Shown piece after piece: positions 9,723 through 31,320 of a stretch of DNA of 36,460 nt. The position numbers and the translations under genes were made by a program. The notes under the pieces were generated by a model. It saw only the letters and a program-made list of their open reading frames with translations. It did not search any database and was not told the DNA's origin. The DNA is taken from contig JAOQAJ010000323.1 in the NCBI GenBank assembly GCA_025963675.1, forward strand, positions 1 to 36,460, written 5' to 3'. Position 1 is the stretch's first letter. Each line of letters begins with the position of its first letter. The DNA is from Segetibacter sp. GTDB taxonomy: Bacteria > Bacteroidota > Bacteroidia > Chitinophagales > Chitinophagaceae.

Positions 9723-10460
9723 ATGATGACTTTTTTACCTGGAAAAACTATTCTTGCCATTGTTTTTATCGTTTGCTCTTTTACTTATCCAAAAAGTACA
9801 TCGGCTCAGAATTTACCGATTGAACAGCAGAAGTTCATTTATTTTCCTCACCCGATGAATTCTAAATGGACCACTTCAATCGGCGTCACTGCAACCACTC
9901 TTCCATACGATATAACTGAGGAATTACATTACCGCGTTCCTGCCGGTGATTTTCATGTTATAAGAAAAGTTGGTAAAAAAGTAAATCTCGATGGAAGACT
10001 GTCTGTTCAAATTCTTCAAAACCTGGCAACCGTCGGCGTCCGGTGGACAACGGAACTGAATAACAGGATTTCAATTGGCGCGGGAGATGAAATAGGTTAC
10101 TGGTTTGGTTTTGTAAACTTTGCAGGATTTAAATCAAGAGGTAGTGGTTGGCAGAATTATCCTAACGTAGCCATCGGGTATCGGTTTAATAAACAGGTTT
10201 TGCTTTCATTAAGGGCTGACGCGATAATGAATTTCAATGTAAGAACTTTTGCAGGTAAAGAGCGGGTAACAACAGATTACAGGGTATTTAGTGGTTCATC
10301 TTACACAATTGCCCTTGAACAGCCATTTTACGGTAAAAGAAATCTCACACTTGGCTTTCGCGCACTATATACAGATTTCTTCTGGCAGACATGGCCGGCA
10401 TTTGAAAGCTTTGACCGAAATATATTTTTTCCTCAACTAATAATTGGTCTCATCTTATGA
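9723..10460 (+). CDS. Outer-membrane beta-barrel protein, function unknown
   Basis: A 245-aa exported protein with a signal peptide (hydrophobic core AIVFIVCSFTY, cleavage after SAQ). The mature part has alternating hydrophobic/aromatic strands (WTTSIGVTATTLPYDI, RISIGAGDEIGYWFGFVNF, LLSLRADAIMNFNV, LTLGFRALYTDFFWQTW) and ends in a hydrophobic strand (FFPQLIIGLIL), as in small outer-membrane barrels. No family was recognised with certainty. The first of two adjacent ATG codons was used; a TTG just upstream is also in frame. Its stop overlaps the start of the next gene by 4 bp (ATGA), so the two are translationally coupled in an operon with the glycerophosphodiesterase lipoprotein and a second barrel. 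Confidence 0.75.
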   Translation: MMTFLPGKTILAIVFIVCSFTYPKSTSAQNLPIEQQKFIYFPHPMNSKWTTSIGVTATTLPYDITEELHYRVPAGDFHVIRKVGKKVNLDGRLSVQILQNLATVGVRWTTELNNRISIGAGDEIGYWFGFVNFAGFKSRGSGWQNYPNVAIGYRFNKQVLLSLRADAIMNFNVRTFAGKERVTTDYRVFSGSSYTIALEQPFYGKRNLTLGFRALYTDFFWQTWPAFESFDRNIFFPQLIIGLIL

Positions 10461-11725
10461 TAAAACACTGGTGTATTGCAATACTTTGCATAGTTACCTT
10501 TTCATGTAAAAAACACTATGAGGCTCCGGTGCCGGAAACTAAATGGAATTTGTTTGATTCACCCGCATCAACTTCTTTAACCAACGAAACTCGAAATAAA
10601 TTAGAAGGTGTTTACTCTGTTTCAGAAGGGGCAGATGTATTTGGAGCATCTGCTGCCCTTAAATGGAGTTACACCGTAAATGGCAGCGATACAACATACC
10701 AGCTTTCTATGTTCTGCGAAAGGCAGGTGGTTTATGTTATATGTGAAGGCAAAAGATTAGACAGCTCGATATTATTAAACGGTTATTGGCGAAATGTGGT
10801 AAATACGGAAACGGGTATTGCCAGGTTCACAATTTCTAAAAATACAGGAGGAGGCTATTTGCTTGATTCCTCCACGCTCAATGCGGTACCTGGTACCATA
10901 ATAACCGGCCTGTACGGAACTGCACAAGATACTACCAGGATAGTTCGAATGCAATATAATCGTCCTTTATACAAAGCGACTCCGCTTGAAATAGTGGCTC
11001 ATCGGGGAGGTGGACGAACATCAGACTTATTGCCGGCGTCAGAAAACACTGCTGAAATAATCAAATTGGCATCAAGCTTTGGAGCAACAGGCATTGAGAT
11101 CGATGTAAGATTAACAAAAGATGGAGTTCCTGTTTTGTTTCACGATGAAACAATTAATGAAAGATTGATTCAAAGAAATGGGATGATTGGGCCAATAGAG
11201 AATTACACTTATGCTCAATTAAATTCCCTGGTTCGTTTGATTAAAGGAGAGCGCATTCCAACTTTAAGGGAGGCTTTAGATGTAGTCGTTTATAAAACTC
11301 CATTAAAGTATGTCTGGCTCGATACGAAGTTTAAAGGATCGATACAAAAGGAGCGTGACATCCAGGTGGAATACCAGCAGAAAGCCGCAGCTATTGGTCG
11401 TGAGCTCAACATTACCATAGGTATCCCTGACCAGGGAGTCTTAGATAATTTTGTGAAGCTTAAAGATTACAGGAATATTCCATCCGTGGTCGAATTAACC
11501 CCGCAGGATGTAACCAATACTAATGCACAAATCTGGGCGCCCAGGTGGACGCTCGGATTGCAAAATGAGGAAGTTGACAAGATGCATTCAGCAGGAAGAA
11601 AGGCCTACGTGTGGACCCTCGATGTACCCGAAAACATAAGTAAGTATTTTGCCCAGGGTAAATTCGACGGCATATTAACCAATTATCCTTCATCAGTCGC
11701 CTATTATTACTATGCAAAAAAATAA
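10457..11725 (+). CDS. Glycerophosphodiester phosphodiesterase-family lipoprotein
   Basis: A 422-aa lipoprotein: N-terminal hydrophobic segment and lipobox FSC (Cys17) followed by KK. Residues about 178-420 form a GDPD TIM barrel, with H182 and R183 in VAHRGGG, E214 and D216 in GIEIDVRL, and H229/D230/E231 in FHDE, the usual catalytic and metal-binding set. The family hydrolyses glycerophosphodiesters to glycerol 3-phosphate and an alcohol. The region about 30-165 is a separate beta-rich domain (EGVYSVSEGADVFGASAALK and onward) that I do not recognise; it may bind lipid or surface ligands. Overlaps the preceding gene by 4 bp and the following one by 14 bp, so the three are one operon. Likely surface or periplasmic phosphodiester scavenging; some family members act on sugars or lipids instead. 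Confidence 0.88.
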   Translation: MIKHWCIAILCIVTFSCKKHYEAPVPETKWNLFDSPASTSLTNETRNKLEGVYSVSEGADVFGASAALKWSYTVNGSDTTYQLSMFCERQVVYVICEGKRLDSSILLNGYWRNVVNTETGIARFTISKNTGGGYLLDSSTLNAVPGTIITGLYGTAQDTTRIVRMQYNRPLYKATPLEIVAHRGGGRTSDLLPASENTAEIIKLASSFGATGIEIDVRLTKDGVPVLFHDETINERLIQRNGMIGPIENYTYAQLNSLVRLIKGERIPTLREALDVVVYKTPLKYVWLDTKFKGSIQKERDIQVEYQQKAAAIGRELNITIGIPDQGVLDNFVKLKDYRNIPSVVELTPQDVTNTNAQIWAPRWTLGLQNEEVDKMHSAGRKAYVWTLDVPENISKYFAQGKFDGILTNYPSSVAYYYYAKK

Positions 11726-12326
11726 GAGGGTTGTCCTTTATTTTGTAATGTTTTTAACTTGCTTTAAGGCTATCGGCCAGGAAGAAGAATTAACTTCACG
11801 ACCAGTAAGGGATAAAAAATACACTTTGATTTTATACCTGAGTGGAGGATACGGTTATTTCCCTTCTAACAAAGGAGCACCTGCATTTCTAAAGCCAGAA
11901 CTAACAAGAACTAATCCGGTTACAACTGCCCGTATCATGTGGCATCCTGATCATAGGTTAAAGGTTGGCTTTGAAAGTGGCTTTATGACTTTTTACTCTT
12001 ATAAGCTTACAGACGCGGATGGAAAAAAAGGCGAAGTTTCAGTTGACGCCATCCCTTTGTTGCTTGAGTTTTCGGTTTCAGTTAAAAAACACTTTAATGT
12101 CTTTGCCGGTCCCGGGTTTTATATCTTAAAAACTAATTTGGATTATGCCGGTAAAACTACCTCTCAGAAAGTCAGTACCGGTTGGATGGCAGCGGCCGCC
12201 TATACGACGCCAGTCACAAAATCGATAGCACTAGGTGCAGAGGCAAAGTGGTTATATGCAGCCGAAACGATAAGAGGATCTTTTGGTTTGCAAGTACAGG
12301 CTTCGTGGAGGTTTTTAAAATGGTAG
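11712..12326 (+). CDS. Outer-membrane beta-barrel protein, function unknown
   Basis: A 204-aa exported protein: signal peptide MQKNKRVVLYFVMFLTCFKA ending near AIGQ, then about eight amphipathic strands (YTLILYLSGGYGYF, RLKVGFESGFMTFYSYKL, HFNVFAGPGFYILKTNL, SIALGAEAKWLYAA) and a C-terminal strand GLQVQASWRFLKW ending in an aromatic residue, as for OmpA/OmpW-size barrels. Specific family not recognised. Its start lies inside the end of the glycerophosphodiesterase gene (14-bp overlap), indicating coupled expression; the two barrels bracketing the lipoprotein gene may form its outer-membrane partners (inference). Confidence 0.75.
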   Translation: MQKNKRVVLYFVMFLTCFKAIGQEEELTSRPVRDKKYTLILYLSGGYGYFPSNKGAPAFLKPELTRTNPVTTARIMWHPDHRLKVGFESGFMTFYSYKLTDADGKKGEVSVDAIPLLLEFSVSVKKHFNVFAGPGFYILKTNLDYAGKTTSQKVSTGWMAAAAYTTPVTKSIALGAEAKWLYAAETIRGSFGLQVQASWRFLKW

Positions 12327-12426
12327 GCTGCTCTCTTATTACATTTTAAACTTGTCTTGATATGATTTGATGAACCCGCAAACGTGAGTACAGGCAATCG
12401 CAATCGGGGAAGTTTCACCTAACCCA

Positions 12427-12433
12427 TATTTTG
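12427..12433 (+). promoter_or_regulatory. Possible -7 box abutting the metallophosphoesterase start
   Basis: TATTTTG followed by C and then the ATG. It resembles TAnnTTTG with one base fewer. No good -33 TTG at the usual distance. If used, the transcript would begin within the coding start, so this is tentative. Confidence 0.3.
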
Positions 12434-12434
12434 C

Positions 12435-13421
12435 ATGTTCATAAAGAATTTTTTATTTATACTCTTTGGCTTTTTTGCCCTGATATCTAGCGGTCAGACC
12501 GTAGATACTACTTCTATTCCCGGCAAAGAAATGGTTTTCGCAAGCGACACGCAGGCCCCAATGTGGGTTGAGACACTGGTATTAAAATCAAATCGTAATC
12601 GACTTGCTACTAAAAGCATTTTCGACAACATTCTTAACCGTAATCCTGCAGGTGTTTATCTGTTAGGCGATGTGGTGGCTTTGGGCTCCAGTACCAGGCA
12701 ATGGAAGGCAATGGATGCTTACCTCAAAAGGTTACGAAGTAAAGGTATAAAGGTAAATGCCGCGCTCGGCAATCATGAAGTAATGGGTCAACCTGCAAAA
12801 GGACAAAGGAAATTCCAGGTAAGATTTCCAAAACACGTTAAAACCGGTTCACTTGATATTACGGATTCTGTTGCTGTTATTCTTCTTAACTCCAACTTTG
12901 GCTCTCTTTCTTCTTCAGAAGATACTGCTCAAATAAACTGGTATAAACGAACATTAAACGAGTTAGATGCTGATTCCTCGGTTCTATTTATTATTACCGG
13001 TTGTCATCATTCTCCATATACAAACAGTAAAATTGTTGGTTCCTCTATTTCGGTCAGAAAAAATTTTGTTCCTTACTTCCTTCAATCTCCAAAAAGCCGG
13101 TTGTTTTTATCAGGGCACAGCCACAACTTCGAGCATTTTCAGCAGCAGGGTAAAAACTTTTTTGTAATTGGCGGAGGCGGAGGTTTGCACCAGCCGCTAA
13201 AAAAGGGCGAAGGTTTGTTAACCGACCTTGCCATCCAATACAAGCCCATGTTTCACTACCTGGCAATCCAGCGCCACAGCGATCGTTTAGTGCTAACGTC
13301 CATGAGATTGAAATCAGACTTTAGTGGCTTCGAGCAAGGGGCAAAATTTGAGATAGGGCCCTTAACCAGCAATTATTCAACTATCACAAATACTCCTGAA
13401 AAGAGCCCAGGTAAACATTAG
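12435..13421 (+). CDS. Exported metallophosphoesterase
   Basis: A 328-aa calcineurin-like phosphoesterase with a signal peptide (FLFILFGFFALISSGQ). Two-metal site motifs in order: D38 in FASDTQ, D79 in LLGDVV, N113-H114-E115 in LGNHE, H191/H192 in GCHHSPY, H228 and H230 in SGHSHNFE. The first motif is DxQ where the family usually has DxH, a variant seen in some subfamilies, so activity is still likely. The extra domain after residue about 265 is short. It lies 108 bp after the barrel gene and may be a separate transcript. Substrate unknown; phosphomonoester or diester hydrolysis in the periplasm is the family expectation and would fit with the glycerophosphodiesterase upstream. Confidence 0.87.
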   Translation: MFIKNFLFILFGFFALISSGQTVDTTSIPGKEMVFASDTQAPMWVETLVLKSNRNRLATKSIFDNILNRNPAGVYLLGDVVALGSSTRQWKAMDAYLKRLRSKGIKVNAALGNHEVMGQPAKGQRKFQVRFPKHVKTGSLDITDSVAVILLNSNFGSLSSSEDTAQINWYKRTLNELDADSSVLFIITGCHHSPYTNSKIVGSSISVRKNFVPYFLQSPKSRLFLSGHSHNFEHFQQQGKNFFVIGGGGGLHQPLKKGEGLLTDLAIQYKPMFHYLAIQRHSDRLVLTSMRLKSDFSGFEQGAKFEIGPLTSNYSTITNTPEKSPGKH

Positions 13422-13461
13422 TGATTTATGGTTACAAACAGTTGTTGTAAGGGTTGCATTC

Positions 13462-13497
13462 TTGCGTCGCAGTCCGTTCATCTGCAGCACTACTATT
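13462..13497 (+). repeat. Dispersed intergenic repeat, copy 1
   Basis: TTGCGTCGCA, 3 nt, CGTTCATC, 7 nt, CTACTATT. The same words with identical spacing occur at 25983-26018, and the first two also at 31446-31466. This copy lies 40 bp after the metallophosphoesterase stop. The remaining spacer to 13769 is AT-rich with no gene recognised. Confidence 0.75.
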
Positions 13498-13769
13498 AAG
13501 CTTTGTTCACCTTTTGTTATAAATTGTTAGCGGCGGTCACCGCGAGTTTCAAAATTTTAGTATTTAATAATTATCTTGTACAAATCTTAGGATTACAAGA
13601 ACTTTTTTAGCAATTAATTCCCCCCAATTTTTAATCTGGCCTGTTATTTAATTAAAACAGTTTTAAGTTTTAAAATTTAAAACTATGTCACAAAGAATAG
13701 ACTTTTCTGAGGAATAGAGCCGTGTAGGCTTCAATTGTCTTTAACAACCAAATCTCTTATATTGATTTT

Positions 13770-14429
13770 ATGAATAGAACTCTATTACTCATCATCGTCA
13801 TTGCAACAATTGTGTCTTGTGCGCCAACACGATTTGTAAAGCCTTTAGCGAAAAAACAGCAGGCAGTAAACCTTTCTGTAGGTGGTGCGCTTATTAGCTA
13901 TAGCAAACTTACTATCCCGATGCCGTTTGTAACAGCAACGTACGGCTATGGTATCGACAGCACACTAACAGGCTTTGGCTCCTTAAATCTAACTTCCCTT
14001 GCTTACGGTAATGCTCAAATTGAGCTTGGGGTTACAAAGCAAATTGTGCAGCAAAAAGGCCGTTGGCCCGGCATCAGCATTAACCCCGTTGCAAACATCA
14101 TTTACAGAAAAGATGCTTCAAAGCTTTATCCCGAAATTGACATTAACGCCTTTTGGGATTATAACAATAAAAGAAACTTTTTTTATGTAGGTGTTGCTAA
14201 CTGGTTTGAGCTCTCAGGAAAAAGAGCTTACGATCAAAAGCAGGAACATCGTTGGCTTTTCAATCCAATGATCGGCCAAACATTTGTGCAAAAAAAATGG
14301 AATTATAATATTGAATTGAAAGCAATTGCTCCCAATATTGCCAATAACACAAGCACCGTTGATTATAAAACTCCCTTTGGATCTCATGGAGCATTTGGAA
14401 TTTATTTAGGTTGTACAAGAAAATTTTAG
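13770..14429 (+). CDS. Lipoprotein, probable beta-barrel, function unknown
   Basis: A 219-aa protein with a lipoprotein signal (LLLIIVIATIVSC, lipid Cys at about 17). The mature part is rich in alternating strands (AVNLSVGGALISYSKL, FVTATYGYGIDSTLTGFGSL, NFFYVGVANWFEL) and ends with GAFGIYLGCTRKF, suggesting a barrel or beta-sandwich. I do not recognise a named family. It is separated by only 3 bp from the following alpha/beta-hydrolase lipoprotein gene, so the two are almost certainly co-transcribed and probably co-localised in the envelope. Confidence 0.72.
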   Translation: MNRTLLLIIVIATIVSCAPTRFVKPLAKKQQAVNLSVGGALISYSKLTIPMPFVTATYGYGIDSTLTGFGSLNLTSLAYGNAQIELGVTKQIVQQKGRWPGISINPVANIIYRKDASKLYPEIDINAFWDYNNKRNFFYVGVANWFELSGKRAYDQKQEHRWLFNPMIGQTFVQKKWNYNIELKAIAPNIANNTSTVDYKTPFGSHGAFGIYLGCTRKF

Positions 14430-14432
14430 CAG

Positions 14433-15344
14433 ATGAGAAAAAAGACTTCAATTTTATCAATAATTGTAATAGCAGTTTCTTTAACGGGTTGTCTTCGCCT
14501 CGATGATAATCTGTTTAACGCTAACGAGCATAAAATAGATAAATACGAACTGAGTAATTATAAGGGTGAGGTGGACTTTATCCTTGATGCATCTTATAGT
14601 ATTCCGGCAAACCTCGTTTCACTTTTTACATTAAACTCTAAAGGAACTGATGAAGCAACAGCTACAAAAATTTATGCTGTCTACATTGGCGATACTACCC
14701 GTATTTCGACTGATACCGTTATCGTTTATTGCCATGGCAATAAGGACCATATGGATTTTTATTGGCCACGTGCCCAGCTTCTCGCTAATGCCATCAGTAA
14801 AAACCGTTACGGAGTCTTAATGATAGATTACAGAGGCTATGGATTATCGGAAGGCAAACCCTCTGAAAGTGGACTGTTTAATGATATAGATGCTGGGTTA
14901 CAATGGCTAAAGGCAAAAGGTCTTTCAAATGAAAGATTGGTCATATATGGGTTTAGCATGGGAAGCGTACCAGCCACAAAACTTACCGCAGAACCACGAA
15001 GCATGAGACCGTCAAAACTTATTCTGGAAGCGCCAATAGCTTCGTCAGAAGCAATGGTGCAGGATGCGTCAGCACTAGCCTTGCCGGGTTCCTTTTTTAC
15101 TGATTTGAAAATTAATAATGCCGATCTGATAAAAAAAGTGCAACAACCTTTCATGTGGATCCACGGAACTGCAGACGATTTTTTAAATGTAAAAACACAA
15201 GGTGAAGTCGTTTATATCAATTACGGTGGAGCATCCAAAGACAAGGAAGCGCACCTGGTAGGTGGTGCCGGCCATAGTAACGTACCGGTTTATTTTACAT
15301 TTCCCAGATACATCCAGGCCGTTGGCAATTTTATAAGAAAATAA
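14433..15344 (+). CDS. Alpha/beta-hydrolase lipoprotein
   Basis: A 303-aa lipoprotein (lipobox SLTGC) with a serine alpha/beta-hydrolase fold. Visible triad: nucleophile S175 in GFSMGS, acid D248 in HGTADDF, and H281 in GAGHSN. The oxyanion-hole strand reads VIVYCHGNKDH, and the DYRGYGLSEG stretch is typical of the BEM46/YqiA-like hydrolases. An esterase, lipase or peptidase role at the envelope is likely; the exact substrate is unknown. Its start is 3 bp after the preceding lipoprotein stop, so it is the second gene of a two-gene operon. No clear hairpin terminator after it; the 196-bp spacer downstream is AT-rich. Confidence 0.88.
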   Translation: MRKKTSILSIIVIAVSLTGCLRLDDNLFNANEHKIDKYELSNYKGEVDFILDASYSIPANLVSLFTLNSKGTDEATATKIYAVYIGDTTRISTDTVIVYCHGNKDHMDFYWPRAQLLANAISKNRYGVLMIDYRGYGLSEGKPSESGLFNDIDAGLQWLKAKGLSNERLVIYGFSMGSVPATKLTAEPRSMRPSKLILEAPIASSEAMVQDASALALPGSFFTDLKINNADLIKKVQQPFMWIHGTADDFLNVKTQGEVVYINYGGASKDKEAHLVGGAGHSNVPVYFTFPRYIQAVGNFIRK

Positions 15345-15540
15345 TTAGATCGTTTAAACTTTTCCCTATCATTTTGTCTTAAATAAAAAAAGGTAATCGA
15401 AGCAAAAAAGGTTTGACAAAATAAAGTGCTTTGCTAAAAACAACTTAATTTTATAAAAGCTGAAGCATCAGTTTTTCTCCCCTAAGCAATTATTAAGCAC
15501 AATTGATTATTGTCTCTTTATTTAATTCATTTAAAAATTC

Positions 15541-15870
15541 ATGATTATGAAAAAAATTTGGGTAGCCGCTTTTGTAATGCTTTTGTCACTTAATACTTTT
15601 AACGCCAGTGCAAAAGATAAAAATCCATTTGCCGCAAGTGTTGAAAATTTGACTACAGAGCAAAAAGAAGCACGTTATTTAGAAATGAAGCTACGTGTTG
15701 ACGAGATTAAAAATATGGACAAATCTTCTTTGACAAAAGAAGAGAGAAAGGAACTCCGAAATGAATTAAAAGACATGAACAAGGAGGCCAAAGCCCTTGG
15801 CAAAGGCGGCATTTACATTTCTACCGCCGGACTTATAATAATCATTTTATTGCTTATCATTTTGCTATAA
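15541..15870 (+). CDS. Small exported protein with C-terminal membrane anchor
   Basis: A 109-aa protein of unknown function. Three parts are visible: an N-terminal signal-like helix (MKKIWVAAFVMLLSLNTFNA), a highly charged helical middle (about residues 36-85, LTTEQKEARYLEMKLRVDEI and onward; likely coiled coil) and a very hydrophobic C-terminal segment starting at GIYISTAGLIIIILLLIILL. A second in-frame ATG two codons later (15547) would also fit the signal. Such small helical proteins with a GG-hydrophobic tail recur in Bacteroidota and are unnamed. It is followed by a strong terminator at 15935-15972, supporting expression as a single gene. Confidence 0.7.
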   Translation: MIMKKIWVAAFVMLLSLNTFNASAKDKNPFAASVENLTTEQKEARYLEMKLRVDEIKNMDKSSLTKEERKELRNELKDMNKEAKALGKGGIYISTAGLIIIILLLIILL

Positions 15871-15934
15871 ACCTTATAGCATTATGCTTCAGTTACAAGT
15901 TGCAGACAATTAAAAGTTTTTAGTATTAACTTTT

Positions 15935-15972
15935 AAAGAGGTTGTACCAATCAAATTGGACAGCCTCTTTTT
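15935..15972 (+). terminator. Intrinsic terminator after the small membrane protein gene
   Basis: Stem AAAGAGGTTGT with an inner ATTGG/CCAAT extension and a 3-nt CAA loop, closing with ACAGCCTCTTT, followed by T-rich sequence. About 65 bp after the stop codon. Confidence 0.88.
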
Positions 15973-16089
15973 ATTTTACAATCCCCTGCTTCAAATCAAT
16001 AAATAGAATGGAATGAACGTTATTGATGAAAGATCAATTTTTCTGTTTGCGATAAAACTTGCCTGATTTTTGATATTTCAAAAACACCT

Positions 16090-16983
16090 ATGCTTAAACG
16101 ACTTTCATTCTTCATATTGTTCCTCGTTCTATCGATGTTTTCTTACGGTCAGGCCTTTTTTTATGACGATAAATATTACGATGCCGACATCTTATGGGAA
16201 GGGGGAATCTCTTTTGGATTAATGAATGGTATAACCGACGTAAGTGAAAACAAAGGCAAGGGCTTCTCACCAGGCTATTATCATTTAAATGCGTCGAAAT
16301 CCAACTTCAGCGCCCATTTCGGCATTCTTTACAAAGGCACTTTCGAGGGCAGGATCCAACTTACGAAAGGAACGATCGCCGGAGATGACGCAAACAGTAA
16401 CAGCGCCTATGTGAGGTCAAGAAATTTGAATTATAAGAGCAAAATTTTTGAAGCTGCCTTCGTCGGTGCATTTCACCCATTGATGCTTCGAAATACTGAA
16501 ACGCTTCCTCTACTTTCTCCCTATGTAATGGCCGGTTTAGGCATTTTTTCTTTTTTTCCTCAAACACTTTACGAGGGACAATGGGTGCCGCTTCGCCGAA
16601 TGAATACAGAAGGCCAGACCAGCGAGGAGTACCCGGCGAGAAAACAATATAGCTTGCGGGCATTATCGATCCCTTTAGGAATAGGCGTAAAATATGAGTA
16701 CAACGCAAAATTTAACCTTCGCCTCGAAGCATTGGGGCGTTTTACCACCAGTGACTATCTCGACGATGTTAGCACCACTTATGTTGACCGTGCAATTTTT
16801 CCAACTGAAACCCAGAAACTGCTATCTCACCGATATGAAGAGCTAGATCCCAATGTCGATCGTACCGGTTGGGCAAGAGGCAATTCAAACAACAAGGATA
16901 AATTTTTTACAATCAACCTAAGCGTTGGATATGTATTGGGCAGAAAGAAAATCCCCATCAATTATAACCCGGATAATAAATAA
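16090..16983 (+). CDS. Outer-membrane beta-barrel protein (DUF6089-like)
   Basis: A 297-aa exported protein: signal peptide FFILFLVLSMFSYGQ, then a barrel beginning with DILWEGGISFGLMNGITDV, which resembles the opening of DUF6089-type Bacteroidota barrels. Further strands: FSAHFGILYKGTFEGRIQL, LLSPYVMAGLGIFSFFP, LSIPLGIGVKYEYNAKFNLR, FFTINLSVGYVLG. The loop with YEGQWVPL and the long C-terminal loop (THRYEELDPNVD-like segment near residue 255) match how this group is usually built. Function unknown; possibly a receptor or structural porin. It converges on the PIG-L gene (-), with only 61 bp between stops and no clear hairpin. Confidence 0.78.
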   Translation: MLKRLSFFILFLVLSMFSYGQAFFYDDKYYDADILWEGGISFGLMNGITDVSENKGKGFSPGYYHLNASKSNFSAHFGILYKGTFEGRIQLTKGTIAGDDANSNSAYVRSRNLNYKSKIFEAAFVGAFHPLMLRNTETLPLLSPYVMAGLGIFSFFPQTLYEGQWVPLRRMNTEGQTSEEYPARKQYSLRALSIPLGIGVKYEYNAKFNLRLEALGRFTTSDYLDDVSTTYVDRAIFPTETQKLLSHRYEELDPNVDRTGWARGNSNNKDKFFTINLSVGYVLGRKKIPINYNPDNK

Positions 16984-17044
16984 AGGATGCATTCTCTTTA
17001 TTAAATTTTATAAATGAAGATCTGCAGCCACTGTTTAAATTCGA

Positions 17045-17935
17045 TTATTTCCCCAGCATTGGAAACAGCCTTTTCTTTTCTTCGTCGTTAGGTTGTGATC
17101 CGTATTCACAAATTTCAAATGCTTCTGCATTTTTGATCGTTGCAGCCTTATCTTTTCCATACCACTTTTCGAGAGACTGCCTTACCGCGGGATTGATTTC
17201 CACTGCTCTCCTTTGTCCTAACCACTTTTCCCGGTCTTGTTTGTTAGCAGGTACCTGGTCCAAATGCTGGCCTATCCAGGGCAACCATTCATACATTTGA
17301 GACTCGTGTGCGTCCATCGCGTGGATCTTCTGCAGGAAAACTTCAGTTATATCAATTGCAATGTCAGGGCGAAAGGGATTGGGTTTTTGAAAACGATCCT
17401 GGAAGTATAAAAAAACAGGGTTCTTTTTCAATGCCGGGGTTTCGGGGGCTACGTTTGGTACAGCCACCATATACGCAGCATCCTGAACTAATACGCCTGT
17501 ATAACGGTGGTCAGGATGGTAGTCGTTTGGTCTCGGAGCAATAACCACATCTGCATCCCATTCCCTGATTTTTTTAATTACCTGCAAACGCACCGCAAGG
17601 GTAGGTAGTAATTCTCCATCGTGGTTATTAAGTACATCATAGGTTACACCGAAGCGTTTGCCTGCTTCCTGCGCTTCTGCAAACCTGCGTTTTGCCAATG
17701 GTGTCCCTTTCATTGTTTGATGTCCGGCATCACCATTAGTTACTGCAACAAACTTAACCGCATATCCCATCTTCGCAAATTTAATAGCGGTTCCTCCGCC
17801 ACCCATATCACAGTCGTCGGGGTGAGCACCAATCATTATTATTCGTATTTTACTTTTGTCCTGTGCTTTTATTGAGAAAATATTTAGAAGAAGTAGAGGG
17901 AGAATTAATGATAAGTAATGGCCAATCGTTTTCAT
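17045..17935 (-). CDS. PIG-L/LmbE-family deacetylase, exported
   Basis: A 296-aa zinc-dependent N-deacetylase of the PIG-L (LmbE) family with an N-terminal signal or anchor helix (SLILPLLLLNIFSIKA). Zinc-site residues: H38, D40 and D41 in GAHPDD, and H140 and H143 in YHPDH. The family removes acetyl groups from GlcNAc-type sugars; exported members in Bacteroidota are presumed to act on periplasmic glycans. The sequence continues with RPDIAIDITEVF and a C-terminal region (about 215-296) common to this exported subgroup. Divergent from the Omp85-like gene across a 208-bp spacer. The substrate is not readable from sequence. Confidence 0.9.
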   Translation of the reverse strand: MKTIGHYLSLILPLLLLNIFSIKAQDKSKIRIIMIGAHPDDCDMGGGGTAIKFAKMGYAVKFVAVTNGDAGHQTMKGTPLAKRRFAEAQEAGKRFGVTYDVLNNHDGELLPTLAVRLQVIKKIREWDADVVIAPRPNDYHPDHRYTGVLVQDAAYMVAVPNVAPETPALKKNPVFLYFQDRFQKPNPFRPDIAIDITEVFLQKIHAMDAHESQMYEWLPWIGQHLDQVPANKQDREKWLGQRRAVEINPAVRQSLEKWYGKDKAATIKNAEAFEICEYGSQPNDEEKKRLFPMLGK

Positions 17936-18143: not shown

Positions 18144-20747
18144 ATGATGCGGTTTTTTTTAATATTTAAAAGTGCCAGGAAGCATACTTTTTTTTTATTC
18201 TTCCTGTCGTTATCATTTGTCGTTGCTGTCAGTCAATCTTCTAACAATAAAAGTGATAGCATTTACGCGTCGATTGCTCCTGATTATGATAGTGTAGGAA
18301 AATTTCACCGCTTTTGGCTGGGAGAAAGTTATCGGAAATTATGGGCGGCGCCGGTAAAGATGAGGGTGTTTCATTTATCAAAAGAAAAAGGCGGACTTAC
18401 AGTGTTGCAAAGGGGTGGTGGTCTTCAAACCAAATCGTTGAGACTAAAAGATAGCCGCAGCAGGCAATGGGTATTGAGAACGATTCAAAAATATCCTGAA
18501 CGCGCATTACCGGAGAAACTAAGAAAAACCGTTGCAAAAGACATTTTGCAGGACCAGGTAGTAACTGGTCATCCTTATTCGGCTTTAACTGTACCGCCTT
18601 TTGCCCAGGCACTCGGCATACCTCATTCAAACCCTGAAATTGTTTATGTAGCTGATGATCCTTCGTTAGGAGAGTATAGATCTGATTTTGCCAATTCAGT
18701 CTTGTTGTTTGAAGAACGAGAGGTGGTTGACACAATCAAATCTGATAATTCACAAAAAGCACAGGAAAATCTTCAGGGGGATAATGATATAAGGGTCGAT
18801 CAGAAATTAGTTTTAAGGGCCAGGCTACTGGATATTTTGATGGGTGATTGGGACAGGCATGAGGATCAATGGAGATGGGAAAGAATAAGAGATAGAAGCG
18901 GCCTGGTATATATTCCTGTTCCTCGTGATCGAGACAAAGTATATTATAATACTTCGGGGGTACTTCCATGGTTTCTGTCGCACCAATGGCTAAAGTCAAA
19001 CTTGCAGGGTTTTAAGGGTGAGATCAGAGACATACCCGGATACAATTTTAATAACAGGTATTTTGATCGTTACTTTTTAACGGCATTAGGTGAAGATGTT
19101 TGGAAAGAGCAAATAAAATATGTTCAAACAAAAATTACAGACAGTCTTATTTCGAGATCGATAAAGTTACTGCCTGACACCATCTATGCACTTTCGGGAG
19201 AAAAAATAATCAGGACGTTGATAGCACGCCGCGCAACATTACAGAAAGAGGCCTTAAAATATTATCGGTTTATTTCAAAGTATGTTGATATTCCCGCTTC
19301 TGATAAACATGAACTTTTTGATATAGAAAATAAAAGCAACGGGCAATTAGGTGTAACTATTTATAAAATAAAAAAAGACGGAACCAAAGACAAAGTAATT
19401 TATAACCGAACCTTTGATCCTGCTGTTACTAAAGAAGTAAGGCTATATGCTTTTGCCGGAAAAGATATTTTTTCTGTGGTGGGTTCTGGTAAGTCTGCAA
19501 TTAAAGTACGTTTAATCGGAGGTCCTGATAGAGATAGCTTTTATGTAAGTAACGAGGTGCAGAACAGAAGCAAAGTATATGCTTACGACCGTTTTGATGA
19601 ACCAAATGTTTTACCTAACCGAACTGTCGCTAAAATCCGCACTTCTTTTGATAGTTCCGTAAATCAATTTGATAAACGCTGGTTTAAATATGATCAACTC
19701 GGTCCGGTTGTCATGGCTCAATACAACCTTGACCAGGGAGTACAATTGCGCGTCGGTTTAATTTTCGAAAAACACGGATTTAGAAGAGAGCCATATGCGG
19801 CACGCCACGAGATTTATGGTAATTATTCTACCGGAAGAAAGGCTTTTATGTTCACTTATTTCGCCGATATTAAAAGAGTGTTTGGCTCCACCGACATGAT
19901 GATCAACGTGCTTTCAAGAGGGCCTCATAATATTAGTAATTTCTATGGGATAGGTAACGAAACTGAGTTTATAAGAACCGGTGCAAAAGGAATAAATTTT
20001 TACCGCAACAGGTACGATTATATAAATGCAGATGTACGATTGAAACGAAATGTACTAAGACATTTAAGGCTAAGTGCTGGCTTAGCCGGCCAGTTTTATA
20101 GTAGCTCTCAAAAGAACAATACAAATCATTTTTTAAATAGCTACAATACCCTTCGCAATGATGAAGATGTTTTTTCGACCCGTTATTATGGTGGCTTGGT
20201 TGCCGGTGCTGAATTAGATACCCGAAACACTTTGATGTTGCCCGCAAGCGGCGTTTATTGGACATCAGAGATAAGAGGAATGCATGAAATTAGTGGCGAG
20301 GCGAAATCATATGCACAACTTAGATCAGAGCTTAACCTGTATATTCCTGTTACCCGAGATTCGAATCTGGTAATGTTTAATAGGGTAGGAGCAGGAACGA
20401 CAGTTGGAGAGCCAGCTTTTTTTCAACAGATGCAATTAGGAGGAATTCAAAATCTTCGTGGATTTCATACAAATAGATTTACTGGTAAGTCTATGTTTTA
20501 TCATAGTATACAAGCTCGTTTAAAACTATTTGATTTTACTTCTTATTTACTTCCGGGTTCGGTGGGTCTGATAGGATTTAATGATATTGGCAGGGTGTGG
20601 GTTCCGGGAGAGTCGTCAAACAAATGGCACGATGGATATGGTGGTGGAATATATATAGTACCGGCAGACCTTGTATTGATACAAGTAGTAATTGGACACT
20701 CGAAAGAAGGTACCCAACCTTATATTACAATAGGTGTAAACCTGTGA
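18144..20747 (+). CDS. Omp85/BamA-type outer-membrane barrel with kinase-like N-terminal region
   Basis: An 867-aa exported protein. After a signal peptide (FFLFFLSLSFVVAVSQ), residues about 55-300 do not look like POTRA domains. They hold GGLTVLQRGGGLQTKSLRL with a following strand VLRTIQK (R112), a helix ending in MGDWDRHEDQW (D237, R238, H239, Q242), and IPVPRDRDK (D262, D264). This order recalls the Gly-rich loop, catalytic loop and metal-binding Asp of HipA/Fam20C-type kinases. Residues about 510-867 form an Omp85 barrel: LRGF at 771-774 (the VRGF/Y motif), GFNDIGRVW and a terminal strand TIGVNL. Barrel assignment is firm; kinase likeness is inference from motifs. Barrels of this kind insert or secrete proteins or lipids across the outer membrane. 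A candidate promoter lies just upstream. Confidence 0.85.
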   Translation: MMRFFLIFKSARKHTFFLFFLSLSFVVAVSQSSNNKSDSIYASIAPDYDSVGKFHRFWLGESYRKLWAAPVKMRVFHLSKEKGGLTVLQRGGGLQTKSLRLKDSRSRQWVLRTIQKYPERALPEKLRKTVAKDILQDQVVTGHPYSALTVPPFAQALGIPHSNPEIVYVADDPSLGEYRSDFANSVLLFEEREVVDTIKSDNSQKAQENLQGDNDIRVDQKLVLRARLLDILMGDWDRHEDQWRWERIRDRSGLVYIPVPRDRDKVYYNTSGVLPWFLSHQWLKSNLQGFKGEIRDIPGYNFNNRYFDRYFLTALGEDVWKEQIKYVQTKITDSLISRSIKLLPDTIYALSGEKIIRTLIARRATLQKEALKYYRFISKYVDIPASDKHELFDIENKSNGQLGVTIYKIKKDGTKDKVIYNRTFDPAVTKEVRLYAFAGKDIFSVVGSGKSAIKVRLIGGPDRDSFYVSNEVQNRSKVYAYDRFDEPNVLPNRTVAKIRTSFDSSVNQFDKRWFKYDQLGPVVMAQYNLDQGVQLRVGLIFEKHGFRREPYAARHEIYGNYSTGRKAFMFTYFADIKRVFGSTDMMINVLSRGPHNISNFYGIGNETEFIRTGAKGINFYRNRYDYINADVRLKRNVLRHLRLSAGLAGQFYSSSQKNNTNHFLNSYNTLRNDEDVFSTRYYGGLVAGAELDTRNTLMLPASGVYWTSEIRGMHEISGEAKSYAQLRSELNLYIPVTRDSNLVMFNRVGAGTTVGEPAFFQQMQLGGIQNLRGFHTNRFTGKSMFYHSIQARLKLFDFTSYLLPGSVGLIGFNDIGRVWVPGESSNKWHDGYGGGIYIVPADLVLIQVVIGHSKEGTQPYITIGVNL

Positions 20748-20984: not shown

Positions 20985-23303
20985 ATGAGAATTTACAAAC
21001 AAAAATCAAAGCCATGGATAACTGAACAACACTTTCAGTTTAATCCATCTTTTGGTCCATATGTTCGGTTTCTTAAAAATAAAAAGGAGCGTTCTGAAGA
21101 TATCCGTGTAAAGTTTTATAGATACCTGATAAAGAAGTTTCAGCAACACCCCACACTAACTGTTCCGTTTACTGATGTGAACATCCTTGAGCAACATGAG
21201 GAGTTAATTCAGCTGTTGGTAATGTCGTTGGTACCACTATCTTCTGATTTTGAAAACCGCCCCTTTGCGCTGGCTGTTTTACAGCCCAGTTGTTTGTTTT
21301 ATTATTCCGATGCTTTCAAAAAAGCTTTTATAAACGAGCAAATCGAATTTAATACCCAGGAAGATGAAGTAAGTAACTTAAGGTATTTTGTGCGGTTGAT
21401 ACTAGAGCGATGTTATCATGTGAAAATAGATGATAACCATAAGATCATAAAACAGGTTAGAAATAACGAGGGGAATATTGTGAAGCACTTGCAGATGACT
21501 GTTGAAAGCAGTTTTATTGAAGTGCATGTTAATGGCAAGCTTCCCGAATTTAACGAAAAGTGGATTAAAATCTTAACTGCTGGCAGAAACGATTTTTTGA
21601 GCGCTTTTAAAAAATTTCCGTCCCACAACTTCCGGGTAGAAGGGTTTTGCATGATATCAATTGAAGATATAAGCAAAGAGATGGCTATTGCTGGTTTAAA
21701 GAATGCCATCGTGAATATGCACATGATATCGATTGACGAAACTGTAAACCTCGTCGAAATGGCAATGGGAGAATTAGTGAGCGATACAAATATTAAGATT
21801 GGTATTACCCCGTTCTTTAAGATCAACGGGAAAATCGTTTATGATAGTTTTTTGATAACGAAAGGGGTGGGTATTTCCTCTATCGAAAAGGGAATCAAAA
21901 ATGGAATTGACATAAATGAAACTTATCAAAAGTTATCACAGAATCCTCAGCCATACATCTTTTCTAATATTGATAAAGATTTTGTTATTAGCCGCAGTTC
22001 GATAAGTGATCTCGGCCGGCAACAAATCAAAAATTATCTTGTATTTCCAATTTTTACGAAGAGAGATGGACTGCTCGGATTGTTTGAATTGGAAAAAGAA
22101 AATATCACTCCTGATATCATTGATGTGTTGCAACCAACGATTCACCTGATAACAGATCTTTTATATTATATGATTGAGATGTTAGACAACAGGATCAACA
22201 GGATTGTGAAGGAGAAATTTACGCCGTTACAACCTTCTGTGGAATGGAAGTTTTACGAAGCGGCATGGAATACTTTGAGGAACAACGTGGATAAGAAAAC
22301 AGAGGAAGCAGTTGAGGATATTGTTTTTAATGATGTGCATCCATTGTATGGTGCAATCGACATTCGCGATTCTTCTGTTCAGCGAAATATTGCTCTAAAA
22401 AACGACTATGTAACTCAATTGGCAGCAACTGTTGATTTACTTGAAAAGACTTCAAAAGATATCTCGCTGCCACTACTGCAGAGCATAAAGTTTAAGTGTA
22501 ATGAATTTATCGAATCAATTGACAATTTTGTTACAACAGAAAATGAAATAGAGATTATAGATTTTTTCGAGAACGAGGTATTTGTTTTTTTCAAGTATCT
22601 CGCAGATCATTTCCCCTCGTACAAAAACGAGATAGCGGATTATTTTAAAAAGACCGACAAGCACAAGGGTATGTTTTGCAGCCAGTTGCATGATTATGAG
22701 CGAAGCATTGAAAAGATAAATACACTGGTGGTTGAATACCTGGACGAGGAAGTAAAAAAACAACAGGACATTTATTCTTTTTACTTTGAAAAGTATAGAA
22801 CAGATGGAATTGAGTACAACATTTATATTGGTCAATCGATTGTCGCTACACAACCTTTCGATCCCATCTATCTAAAGAATCTAAAGTTGTGGCAGCTAAC
22901 AACCATGGCTGAAATAGCGCAACTGAATTATAGAATGCAGGAAACTTTGCCGTTGCCACTAATGACCACACAATTGATTTTGGTGCAAACGCATCCGATT
23001 GATATTTGTTTTAGAAAAGACGAGCGAAGGTTTGATGTTGAGGGTTCTTATAACATCAGGTACGAAATACTTAAAAAGCGAATTGATAAGTCTCTTATAA
23101 AAGGTACGCTGGAAAGACTTACGCAGCCTGACAAGATTGCTATTGTCTACACCAATACCTCTGAAGCCGCAGTGTATAAGCAACACATACATTTTTTGCA
23201 GAGCAAGGGATTGCTGTTGCCGGGAGTAGAAAAATTTGAACTGGAAGATTTGCAAGGTGTGAGTGGGTTAAAGGCTTTGCGGGTGGGGGTGAAGTATGAA
23301 TAG
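20985..23303 (+). CDS. Large GAF-domain protein, function unknown
   Basis: A 772-aa soluble protein without signal peptide or membrane segments. Residues about 235-405 look like a GAF domain; its end is the clearest part (NYLVFPIFTKRDGLLGLFEL, then a helix to about 400). Residues about 430-480 carry a distinctive block with VEDIVFNDVHPLYGAIDIRD followed by SSVQRNIALKNDYVTQL, which I recognise as recurring in a conserved but uncharacterised Bacteroidota protein group. The rest (480-772) is mostly helical. GAF domains bind small ligands such as cyclic nucleotides or act as sensory modules, but no output domain (kinase, cyclase, helix-turn-helix) is visible. A GGGAGG sequence lies about 11 nt before the ATG. 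Cytoplasmic sensor or scaffold is the most that can be said. Confidence 0.75.
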   Translation: MRIYKQKSKPWITEQHFQFNPSFGPYVRFLKNKKERSEDIRVKFYRYLIKKFQQHPTLTVPFTDVNILEQHEELIQLLVMSLVPLSSDFENRPFALAVLQPSCLFYYSDAFKKAFINEQIEFNTQEDEVSNLRYFVRLILERCYHVKIDDNHKIIKQVRNNEGNIVKHLQMTVESSFIEVHVNGKLPEFNEKWIKILTAGRNDFLSAFKKFPSHNFRVEGFCMISIEDISKEMAIAGLKNAIVNMHMISIDETVNLVEMAMGELVSDTNIKIGITPFFKINGKIVYDSFLITKGVGISSIEKGIKNGIDINETYQKLSQNPQPYIFSNIDKDFVISRSSISDLGRQQIKNYLVFPIFTKRDGLLGLFELEKENITPDIIDVLQPTIHLITDLLYYMIEMLDNRINRIVKEKFTPLQPSVEWKFYEAAWNTLRNNVDKKTEEAVEDIVFNDVHPLYGAIDIRDSSVQRNIALKNDYVTQLAATVDLLEKTSKDISLPLLQSIKFKCNEFIESIDNFVTTENEIEIIDFFENEVFVFFKYLADHFPSYKNEIADYFKKTDKHKGMFCSQLHDYERSIEKINTLVVEYLDEEVKKQQDIYSFYFEKYRTDGIEYNIYIGQSIVATQPFDPIYLKNLKLWQLTTMAEIAQLNYRMQETLPLPLMTTQLILVQTHPIDICFRKDERRFDVEGSYNIRYEILKKRIDKSLIKGTLERLTQPDKIAIVYTNTSEAAVYKQHIHFLQSKGLLLPGVEKFELEDLQGVSGLKALRVGVKYE

Positions 23304-30249: not shown

Positions 30250-31320
30250 TTACAGCTTAATTCTTTCAAACTCAAAATTAAGAGGACGATCTTTTAAGGG
30301 GATCTTAATGAACGCTTCCCTGCTTACAGGAACCTCAACTCTTTTATAAATAATTTTTGTTGATTCTTTTTTTGTGTAGGGCTGAACTACTTTGTTAAGA
30401 CTAAATTTTAAACCAGTCACCTGTTCCACAAAATCGATTCGAACCTGGTATGGTTCACCTGTTTTAAAGTCCTCGAAAAAATCGACGTCTGCAGTTTCCC
30501 TGGTCACTTTAACCCCCCTGACGTCTTGCTTTTCGTCGACAACAAAGTTATGTTCACGAAGAATGTTTTCCTGGCTCATGATAAATGCTACCGCTGATAA
30601 CTTGTCTTTTTTATTTCTATAAACAACCACTTTATAAAAGTGACAAGGAATTTGTAAAGGCTTTCCGTCGATCAGGTCAATGTAATAAGGATCGCTCTTC
30701 AATAAAACGGGGCCGGCAAAAACCGACACTTTTCTTCCATCTGCACCATTGTCTTTTGTAAATTTTTTGACGATGTAATCTTCAAGGCTTTTCCATGCAC
30801 CTCTATTCAAGGTATGATGCTGAGGGACGCAGTTAGAATACTTCATTGTTTCGTCTGCAGCCTTCTTTACCGTAGTTGAATCTCCCCATTGCGGGTCTCG
30901 AAATTTGGCGATATGTCCCTTGTCGAAATCATTATTTGAAACGCTTTTGTAAAAATCATATAATTCATCCCCGATCTGGTGTTCGTCCAGGATGTTACGG
31001 TCTTTTGCAAATGTTATCCGGTCTTTCACTTCCGCATTCCATTTAAAGCCATCGATATTGGTTGCAACAAAAAAGGCGAACTTTCGGCTCTTATTCATCA
31101 CGATACTAAAGTGCGTGTACCTAAGTTCAAACTCTTTTGAATCGCTTATTAAAGGCGCTCTTAGCCTTTTTTGTGCGGCAGTTAAACCTGGTAACCGAAG
31201 ATTTATACCCGAAAGAAAATCTGCCTGATAGCCATCCATAAGTGTAGTTGTTGAAAGTGAATGAATAGTAATATAACTATAATCGTGCACATGAGGCGGT
31301 GTTGTTCCAACTAATGCCAT
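30250..31320 (-). CDS. DNA/RNA non-specific endonuclease family protein
   Basis: A 356-aa protein with a His-Me-finger nuclease domain at about 65-260. The DRGH motif appears as DKGH (D133-H136, catalytic H136), and N172 and E180 in the block PQHHTLNRGAWKSLEDYI match the metal-binding Asn and Glu of the NucA/Serratia nuclease group. Unlike most secreted nucleases it has no signal peptide: the N-terminus (MALVGTTPPHVHDYSYITIH) is polar, so it may be cytoplasmic, released by another route, or delivered as an effector. The C-terminal 100 residues (FEDFKTGEPYQVRIDFVEQV and beyond) form an accessory region. No immunity gene is recognisable beside it. Transcribed toward the glutaminase-family gene; its upstream spacer (31321-31891) contains repeat copy 3. 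Confidence 0.88.
   Translation of the reverse strand: MALVGTTPPHVHDYSYITIHSLSTTTLMDGYQADFLSGINLRLPGLTAAQKRLRAPLISDSKEFELRYTHFSIVMNKSRKFAFFVATNIDGFKWNAEVKDRITFAKDRNILDEHQIGDELYDFYKSVSNNDFDKGHIAKFRDPQWGDSTTVKKAADETMKYSNCVPQHHTLNRGAWKSLEDYIVKKFTKDNGADGRKVSVFAGPVLLKSDPYYIDLIDGKPLQIPCHFYKVVVYRNKKDKLSAVAFIMSQENILREHNFVVDEKQDVRGVKVTRETADVDFFEDFKTGEPYQVRIDFVEQVTGLKFSLNKVVQPYTKKESTKIIYKRVEVPVSREAFIKIPLKDRPLNFEFERIKL

Follow-up and report, generated by a model that had tools for sequence, protein, structure and literature searches.

The 867-residue protein encoded at positions 18144..20747 on the plus strand of the window (the whole 36,460-nucleotide stretch of Segetibacter sp. DNA analysed here) is, in the reading that we consider fairly probable, an atypical kinase anchored in the outer membrane and facing the periplasm. 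The fold is supported by a predicted model; catalysis, topology, substrate and phosphoryl donor we infer. Translation of this open reading frame, which we call K-beta-Omp85, gives the following layout, all on the plus strand: a hydrophobic N-terminus taken as a signal peptide (residues 1–31, 18144..18236, with a putative cleavage site), a kinase-like domain that we name K (residues 35–379, 18246..19280), an all-beta linker domain (residues 380–500, 19281..19643) and a 16-strand Omp85 barrel (residues 518–865, 19695..20738). A simple, rough hydropathy rule finds an SPI-like or lipobox N-terminus in 64 of 72 homologues.

An earlier note on this DNA had assigned residues 510–867 to an Omp85 barrel with LRGF at 771–774, and the searches bear this out. 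PF01103 matches residues 620–830 of the window protein in Pfam (E 4.5e-14), and a second barrel match, to NF047779 of NCBIfam, lies under that model's own cut-off. The full-length model (residues 33–867, 68 sequences, pLDDT 91.0) forms a barrel of 16 long strands from about residue 518 to 865, which resembles TamA (Z 27.3) and BamA (Z 27.2) in VIA-align and reaches E 7.6e-13 in Foldseek. The LRGF motif (20454..20465), presumably the loop 6 motif of Omp85 barrels, has its G773 invariant in 68 alignment rows. By family match, strand number, a VIA-align Z of 27 and this motif, the protein belongs to the Omp85 superfamily. The absence of POTRA domains had also been proposed, and it is upheld: no POTRA family matches the window protein in Pfam at E up to 10, and DSSP assigns nearly all of residues 380–500 to strands and loops in both the 35–500 and the full-length models, without the two POTRA helices. 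A POTRA reading of the N-terminal half was consequently rejected, the secondary structure not being beta-alpha-alpha-beta-beta. The protein shows no sign of the N-terminal POTRA domains, at least one of which defines a POTRA-bearing Omp85, and the linker stands where they would be expected.

No Pfam or NCBIfam model matches the first 500 residues with E set up to 10, a setting under which the HMMER filters still discard most matches above about E 0.1. The fold is more informative. An AlphaFold2 model of residues 35–500, built from a 78-sequence alignment, has a mean pLDDT of 92.6 and a pTM of 0.92, and its Foldseek search against the PDB gives 11 matches at E <= 0.001. The titles of ten name a kinase: Rio2 twice (1.1e-5 and 6.9e-4), PI4KII-alpha (7.8e-5), CtkA in six chains and one further bacterial kinase. 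The remaining match is MSMEG_1954 bound to ADP, which we take to have a kinase-like fold. TM-scores by query length are modest for these 11 best matches (0.20–0.34) and low for any single kinase among the 50 matches listed (0.15–0.34). In VIA-align 2 the top match is PI4KII-beta (Z 14.2, rmsd 4.7, 261 aligned), followed by CotH (Z 14.1, rmsd 4.0, 243 aligned) and, lower, by CtkA (13.1), VPS34 (11.6), HipA (11.2) and a Golgi casein kinase (10.5), an entry that we assume to be of the Fam20C type; among the matches listed, 7–16% of the aligned residues are identical. The tool's reference figures put a typical best Z at 7–8 where there is no clear match, but at 14 for five models that are mostly helical; because such models can reach Z 14 without true relatives, Z by itself is no proof. 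What carries the case for the predicted fold is that the VIA-align rows are kinases nearly throughout, rather than the size of Z. The bilobal kinase fold of the protein-kinase-like superfamily is seen, by prediction alone, in this model.

The kinase interpretation of the N-terminal domain is thereby largely supported at the level of the predicted fold, prediction and fold search having returned kinases that include PI4KII, VPS34, HipA and the Golgi casein kinase. The extent that had been given to it, the first 250 residues, did not stand: all the VIA-align kinase matches lie inside model residues 1–347, i.e., protein residues 35–381, and the domain reaches to about residue 379. The motifs on which the interpretation had been built are all found in the window translation where they had been placed, RGGGLQTKSLRL starting at residue 90, VLRTIQK at 110, GDWDRHEDQW at 234, PRDRD at 260 and LRGF at 771.

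Attempts to assign K by sequence to one named kinase family were unfruitful, with CotH, CtkA and HipA all weak or at control level. A profile search at E up to 1 gave no kinase-named family for any of 32 family members. CotH (PF08757), HipA_C (PF07804), Fam20C and the PI3/PI4 kinase families of Pfam matched neither the window protein (E cut-off 10) nor any of these 32 (E cut-off 1). With hhalign, the probability of a relation to CotH was 38% with 16 CotH sequences and 5% with 49. The larger profile aligned the catalytic loop and PyDyD of CotH onto DWDRH and PRDRD (single-comparison E 0.008), and the smaller one gave E 3e-4 over DWDRH only. CtkA came third in a profile search, behind two unrelated chains, with E 0.43 on DRHxxNW. 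Sixteen HipA sequences gave 0.7%, and six unrelated control profiles gave 0.1–0.7%. K resembles the CotH spore-coat kinases in fold (Z 14.1) and in having catalytic and metal motifs in the same order, weakly aligned; unlike K, CotH has no barrel, and its loop letters differ from DWDRHEDQW and PRDRD. PI4KII, VPS34, CtkA, HipA and the Golgi casein kinase likewise share a common fold with K (Z 10.5–14.2), but no outer-membrane barrel tether is described in these entries. On the evidence of the model, K would be a new family of kinase-like domains, borne by an Omp85 scaffold that is already known and lying outside the curated kinase families tested.

Conservation was read from 72 homologues collected by whole-domain search and not by motif: the window protein, 31 from the best matches and its own genome, and 40 taken at about one per genus. 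Motif counts from 80 scanned loci were excluded, since that scan itself selects [GSA]DWDRHx[DG]Q. Averaged over columns 35–380, 37% of rows share the residue of the window protein, a share that reaches at least 95% of the 72 rows in 30 of these 346 columns. All five residues that had been singled out beforehand as catalytic or metal-binding fall among those 30 (hypergeometric p 4e-6, or 2e-5 when only polar columns are counted). The expected invariance holds in this set. In the catalytic-loop-like motif GDWDRHEDQW (residues 234–243, 18843..18872), D237, R238 and H239 are present in 72/72 and Q242 in 71/72, the lone exception being Asn, the residue that classical kinases use at this position. 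In the metal-binding-like motif PRDRD (residues 260–264, 18921..18935), aligned to PyDyD of CotH, D262 and D264 are present in 72/72. R112, K116, D230 and D235 are also among the invariant residues, and E190 and D137 are each kept in 71 of the 72. E190 (18711..18713) lies close to the end of modelled strand 185–191, at what would be the hinge position. The Gly-rich loop GGGLQT (residues 91–96, 18414..18431) sits between modelled strands 86–91 and 98–102, with G92 in all homologues and Q95 in 70.

R112 and K116 (18477..18491) are candidate phosphate-binding basic residues. In the model, R112 lies within strand 108–113 and K116 directly after it. The beta-3 position that usually holds Lys thus seems to be non-canonical, occupied by R112 with K116 following the strand. 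Other kinase folds carry out nucleotidyl transfer or ligase chemistry, as in SelO and SidJ, and K could be a nucleotidyl transferase (a SelO-like AMPylase) or a SidJ-like ligase on the same fold, R112/K116 reflecting a different reaction. The retention of catalytic-loop residues together with an Arg as the beta-3 basic residue is in keeping with this; however, GDWDRHEDQW and PRDRD stand in canonical order, and the D237–D262 spacing of 25 is close to the 23 between D228 and D251 of CotH, whose D228Q and D251A variants are described as inactive (PMC7821199). Such chemistry appears unlikely to us, and phosphotransfer is retained as the putative activity of K in what follows.

The invariance has one exception, outside the 72-sequence set. 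Ten barrel-less K open reading frames from six loci, picked for being short, include three from one genus in which D237S and H239R occur together (L222:7391-9148, L225:5836-7491 and L226:5801-7459). The other 12 checked positions are unchanged in all three. Since D237 and H239 are lost alone, with the 12 others kept, D237 is marked out as a functional residue. Each of these copies adjoins an intact K copy in divergent orientation, which looks like a kinase/pseudokinase pairing; such pairing is known for Fam20C/Fam20A, and that pair is the natural comparison. The same copies bear on a different account of the whole family, in which K is a catalytically dead pseudokinase scaffold that replaces POTRA as a platform for barrel-assembly or secretion clients. 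K does stand where POTRA would be on a barrel that resembles those of insertases, and copies lacking D237 and H239 do occur in this one genus, but a scaffold would have no need of D237, D262 and D264, which are kept in 72/72, and the three D237-less copies each have an intact neighbour. We regard a scaffold role as improbable and continue to treat K as a putative active kinase.

The K family is widespread in Bacteroidota. Of the 395 genomes sampled from this phylum, 141 have a match, as do 72 of 171 genera; Chitinophaga, Mucilaginibacter, Pedobacter and Pontibacter are among the named relatives. K occurs three times in the genome that the window comes from, in the 867-residue protein and in open frames 1231 and 860 residues long. 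The 1231-residue paralogue (L002) begins with PF00149 Metallophos in the Pfam search, a family absent from the 867-residue window protein. Among the 72 homologues, 42 have a long N-terminal extension followed by K and barrel, 28 have K and barrel, and two are barrel-less open reading frames. Whenever more than 330 residues precede K (41 forms, L002 included), the N-terminus matches that of L002 (41/41), and on these sequence matches the long extension of the 42 is of the phosphoesterase type. Its gains and losses on the family tree require at least six events; the extension therefore joins and leaves repeatedly. In one genus the three parts are separate: at locus L224 (5749-9894), K, phosphoesterase and barrel are each encoded by a gene of their own, side by side on one strand, with stop-to-stop open reading frames of 579, 411 and 402 codons, respectively, and gaps of 13 and 17 bases if each gene starts at its first Met. 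The K and phosphoesterase frames have lipobox-like N-termini. Fusion in some lineages and gene adjacency in L224 make phosphoesterase, K and barrel look like one working unit.

Part of this architecture has been described before. The 'Metallo' subfamily of Omp85 proteins (PMC4104836) has, like our long forms, PF00149 and an Omp85 barrel without POTRA domains, and from this architecture, rather than from sequence lists, we infer that the long forms are its members. Heinz and Lithgow (2014) term PF00149 a metalloprotease and note some similarity between the barrels of the 'Metallo' and 'noNterm' subfamilies. The phosphoesterase–barrel architecture has been known since then; the kinase-like part is not mentioned there, a term search of the main text returning no 'kinase'. 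A 2025 study of the BAM complex of Flavobacterium (PMC12611786) likewise contains neither 'kinase' nor 'phosphatase' in its main text. Among the PMC papers listed by a search for such proteins, none dealt with an Omp85–kinase fusion, as judged by title and opening lines of the abstract.

The genomic neighbourhood of K loci is recurrent. A membrane protein with HD and PycTM domains (PF01966, PF18967) is encoded no more than 10 kb from 32 of 57 K loci and, in the lists compared, within that distance in 31 of the 45 genomes that have both; it is near 35/81 K loci in one set and 26/42 in another. A class III cyclase recurs as well, as do a SixA-like member of the histidine phosphatase family and an SdiA-regulated protein. 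Next to the 1231-residue paralogue, on contig C97 of the genome that the window comes from, are an HD-PycTM protein (L220:5502-6725) and a class III cyclase (L220:6870-7943), and PADLOC models of Pycsar defence parts match both. This neighbourhood suggests regulation of K by a nucleotide signal. Polyphosphate is a candidate phosphoryl donor only because PPK1 is sometimes near K loci (16/81 in one set, 8/42 in another). Of 56 loci, 19 have PPK1 at a distance of up to 15 kb and 7 at up to 10 kb; 12 of the 19 belong to one family, f24, at 11–14 kb. Both PPK1 matches of the window's own genome are on contigs other than those of its K genes. All of this could be assembled into a single outer-membrane kinase/phosphatase editing unit, fed by polyphosphate or another periplasmic donor in an ATP-free compartment, regulated by pseudokinases and wired to the adjacent Pycsar-like cyclase and HD-PycTM protein; as a whole, we hold such a unit to be distinctly unlikely.

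Within the window, the recurrent neighbour set is represented only by a 772-residue protein directly downstream of the K gene (20985..23303, plus strand). It is conserved, a homologue accompanying 20 of 80 homologous loci and, in a second set, 12 of 42, and has no Pfam or NCBIfam family. Upstream, positions 10457-17935 hold a cluster of phosphate and envelope enzymes, namely GDPD, calcineurin-like phosphoesterase, alpha/beta hydrolase and PIG-L deacetylase genes; as a conserved set this cluster was rejected, being found at 0 of 80 homologous loci at E 1e-8. Its phosphoesterase (12435-13421) aligns with the phosphoesterase half of L002 only in scraps (E 0.006), and the search gave no close relation between the two. 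A DNA/RNA non-specific endonuclease (PF01223) is encoded at 30250-31320 on the minus strand.

CotH-like genes were also encountered. Three loci (L118, L122 and L134) have one near the K-barrel gene; the products, of about 376 residues, group as one protein cluster, identified as PF08757 in L122 and by position in the genomes of L118 and L134. Separately, 5 of 21 matches to VTC, the polyphosphate polymerase, have a CotH match no more than 6 kb away (e.g., G055:C43 and G019:C20), and a link between CotH kinases and polyphosphate is possible.

A precedent for an enzyme borne in this way is PlpD, an Omp85 protein with an N-terminal enzyme domain that faces the periplasm, as we propose for K. PMC11116518 places its patatin domain in the periplasm and reports that PlpD loss alters membrane lipids; unlike K-beta-Omp85, PlpD carries a patatin-like lipase and has a POTRA domain. 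Export to the surface was first proposed for PlpD (as described in PMC4104836), and the barrel could in the same way deliver K to the outside of the cell, where it would act on extracellular targets. The PlpD enzyme domain was later shown to be periplasmic (PMC11116518), and several barrel-less relatives of K have lipobox-like N-termini and no export barrel of their own. A surface location for K is very unlikely in our view, and the periplasmic kinase is the arrangement developed below.

We hypothesize that the signal peptide would take the protein across the inner membrane and that the barrel would be seated in the outer membrane, with the CotH/PI4KII-like K domain hanging in the periplasm from the all-beta linker, at the place of POTRA in other Omp85 proteins. 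There D237 may serve as the catalytic Asp, D262 and D264 as metal ligands and GGGLQT as the nucleotide loop, and R112/K116 could form a phosphate-binding network with D137 or E190. K would then move a phosphate, possibly a nucleotide, onto a component of the cell envelope close to the periplasmic side of the outer membrane. Most economically, it would be an active phosphotransferase with an envelope protein or a lipid head group as its target. In longer relatives, the calcineurin-like phosphoesterase of the same chain may reverse or complement this transfer. That the periplasm has no known ATP pool counts against this reading.

If K is active, roughly one in three of the genomes sampled from this phylum would have a kinase of a family that lacks a Pfam entry, placed by its barrel at the outer membrane. 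Such a kinase would work where ATP is believed to be absent, and periplasmic phosphorylation and its donor would become testable. Its activity would also account for the unassigned middle of the phosphoesterase–Omp85 proteins, and a kinase would join the enzymes borne by Omp85 scaffolds.
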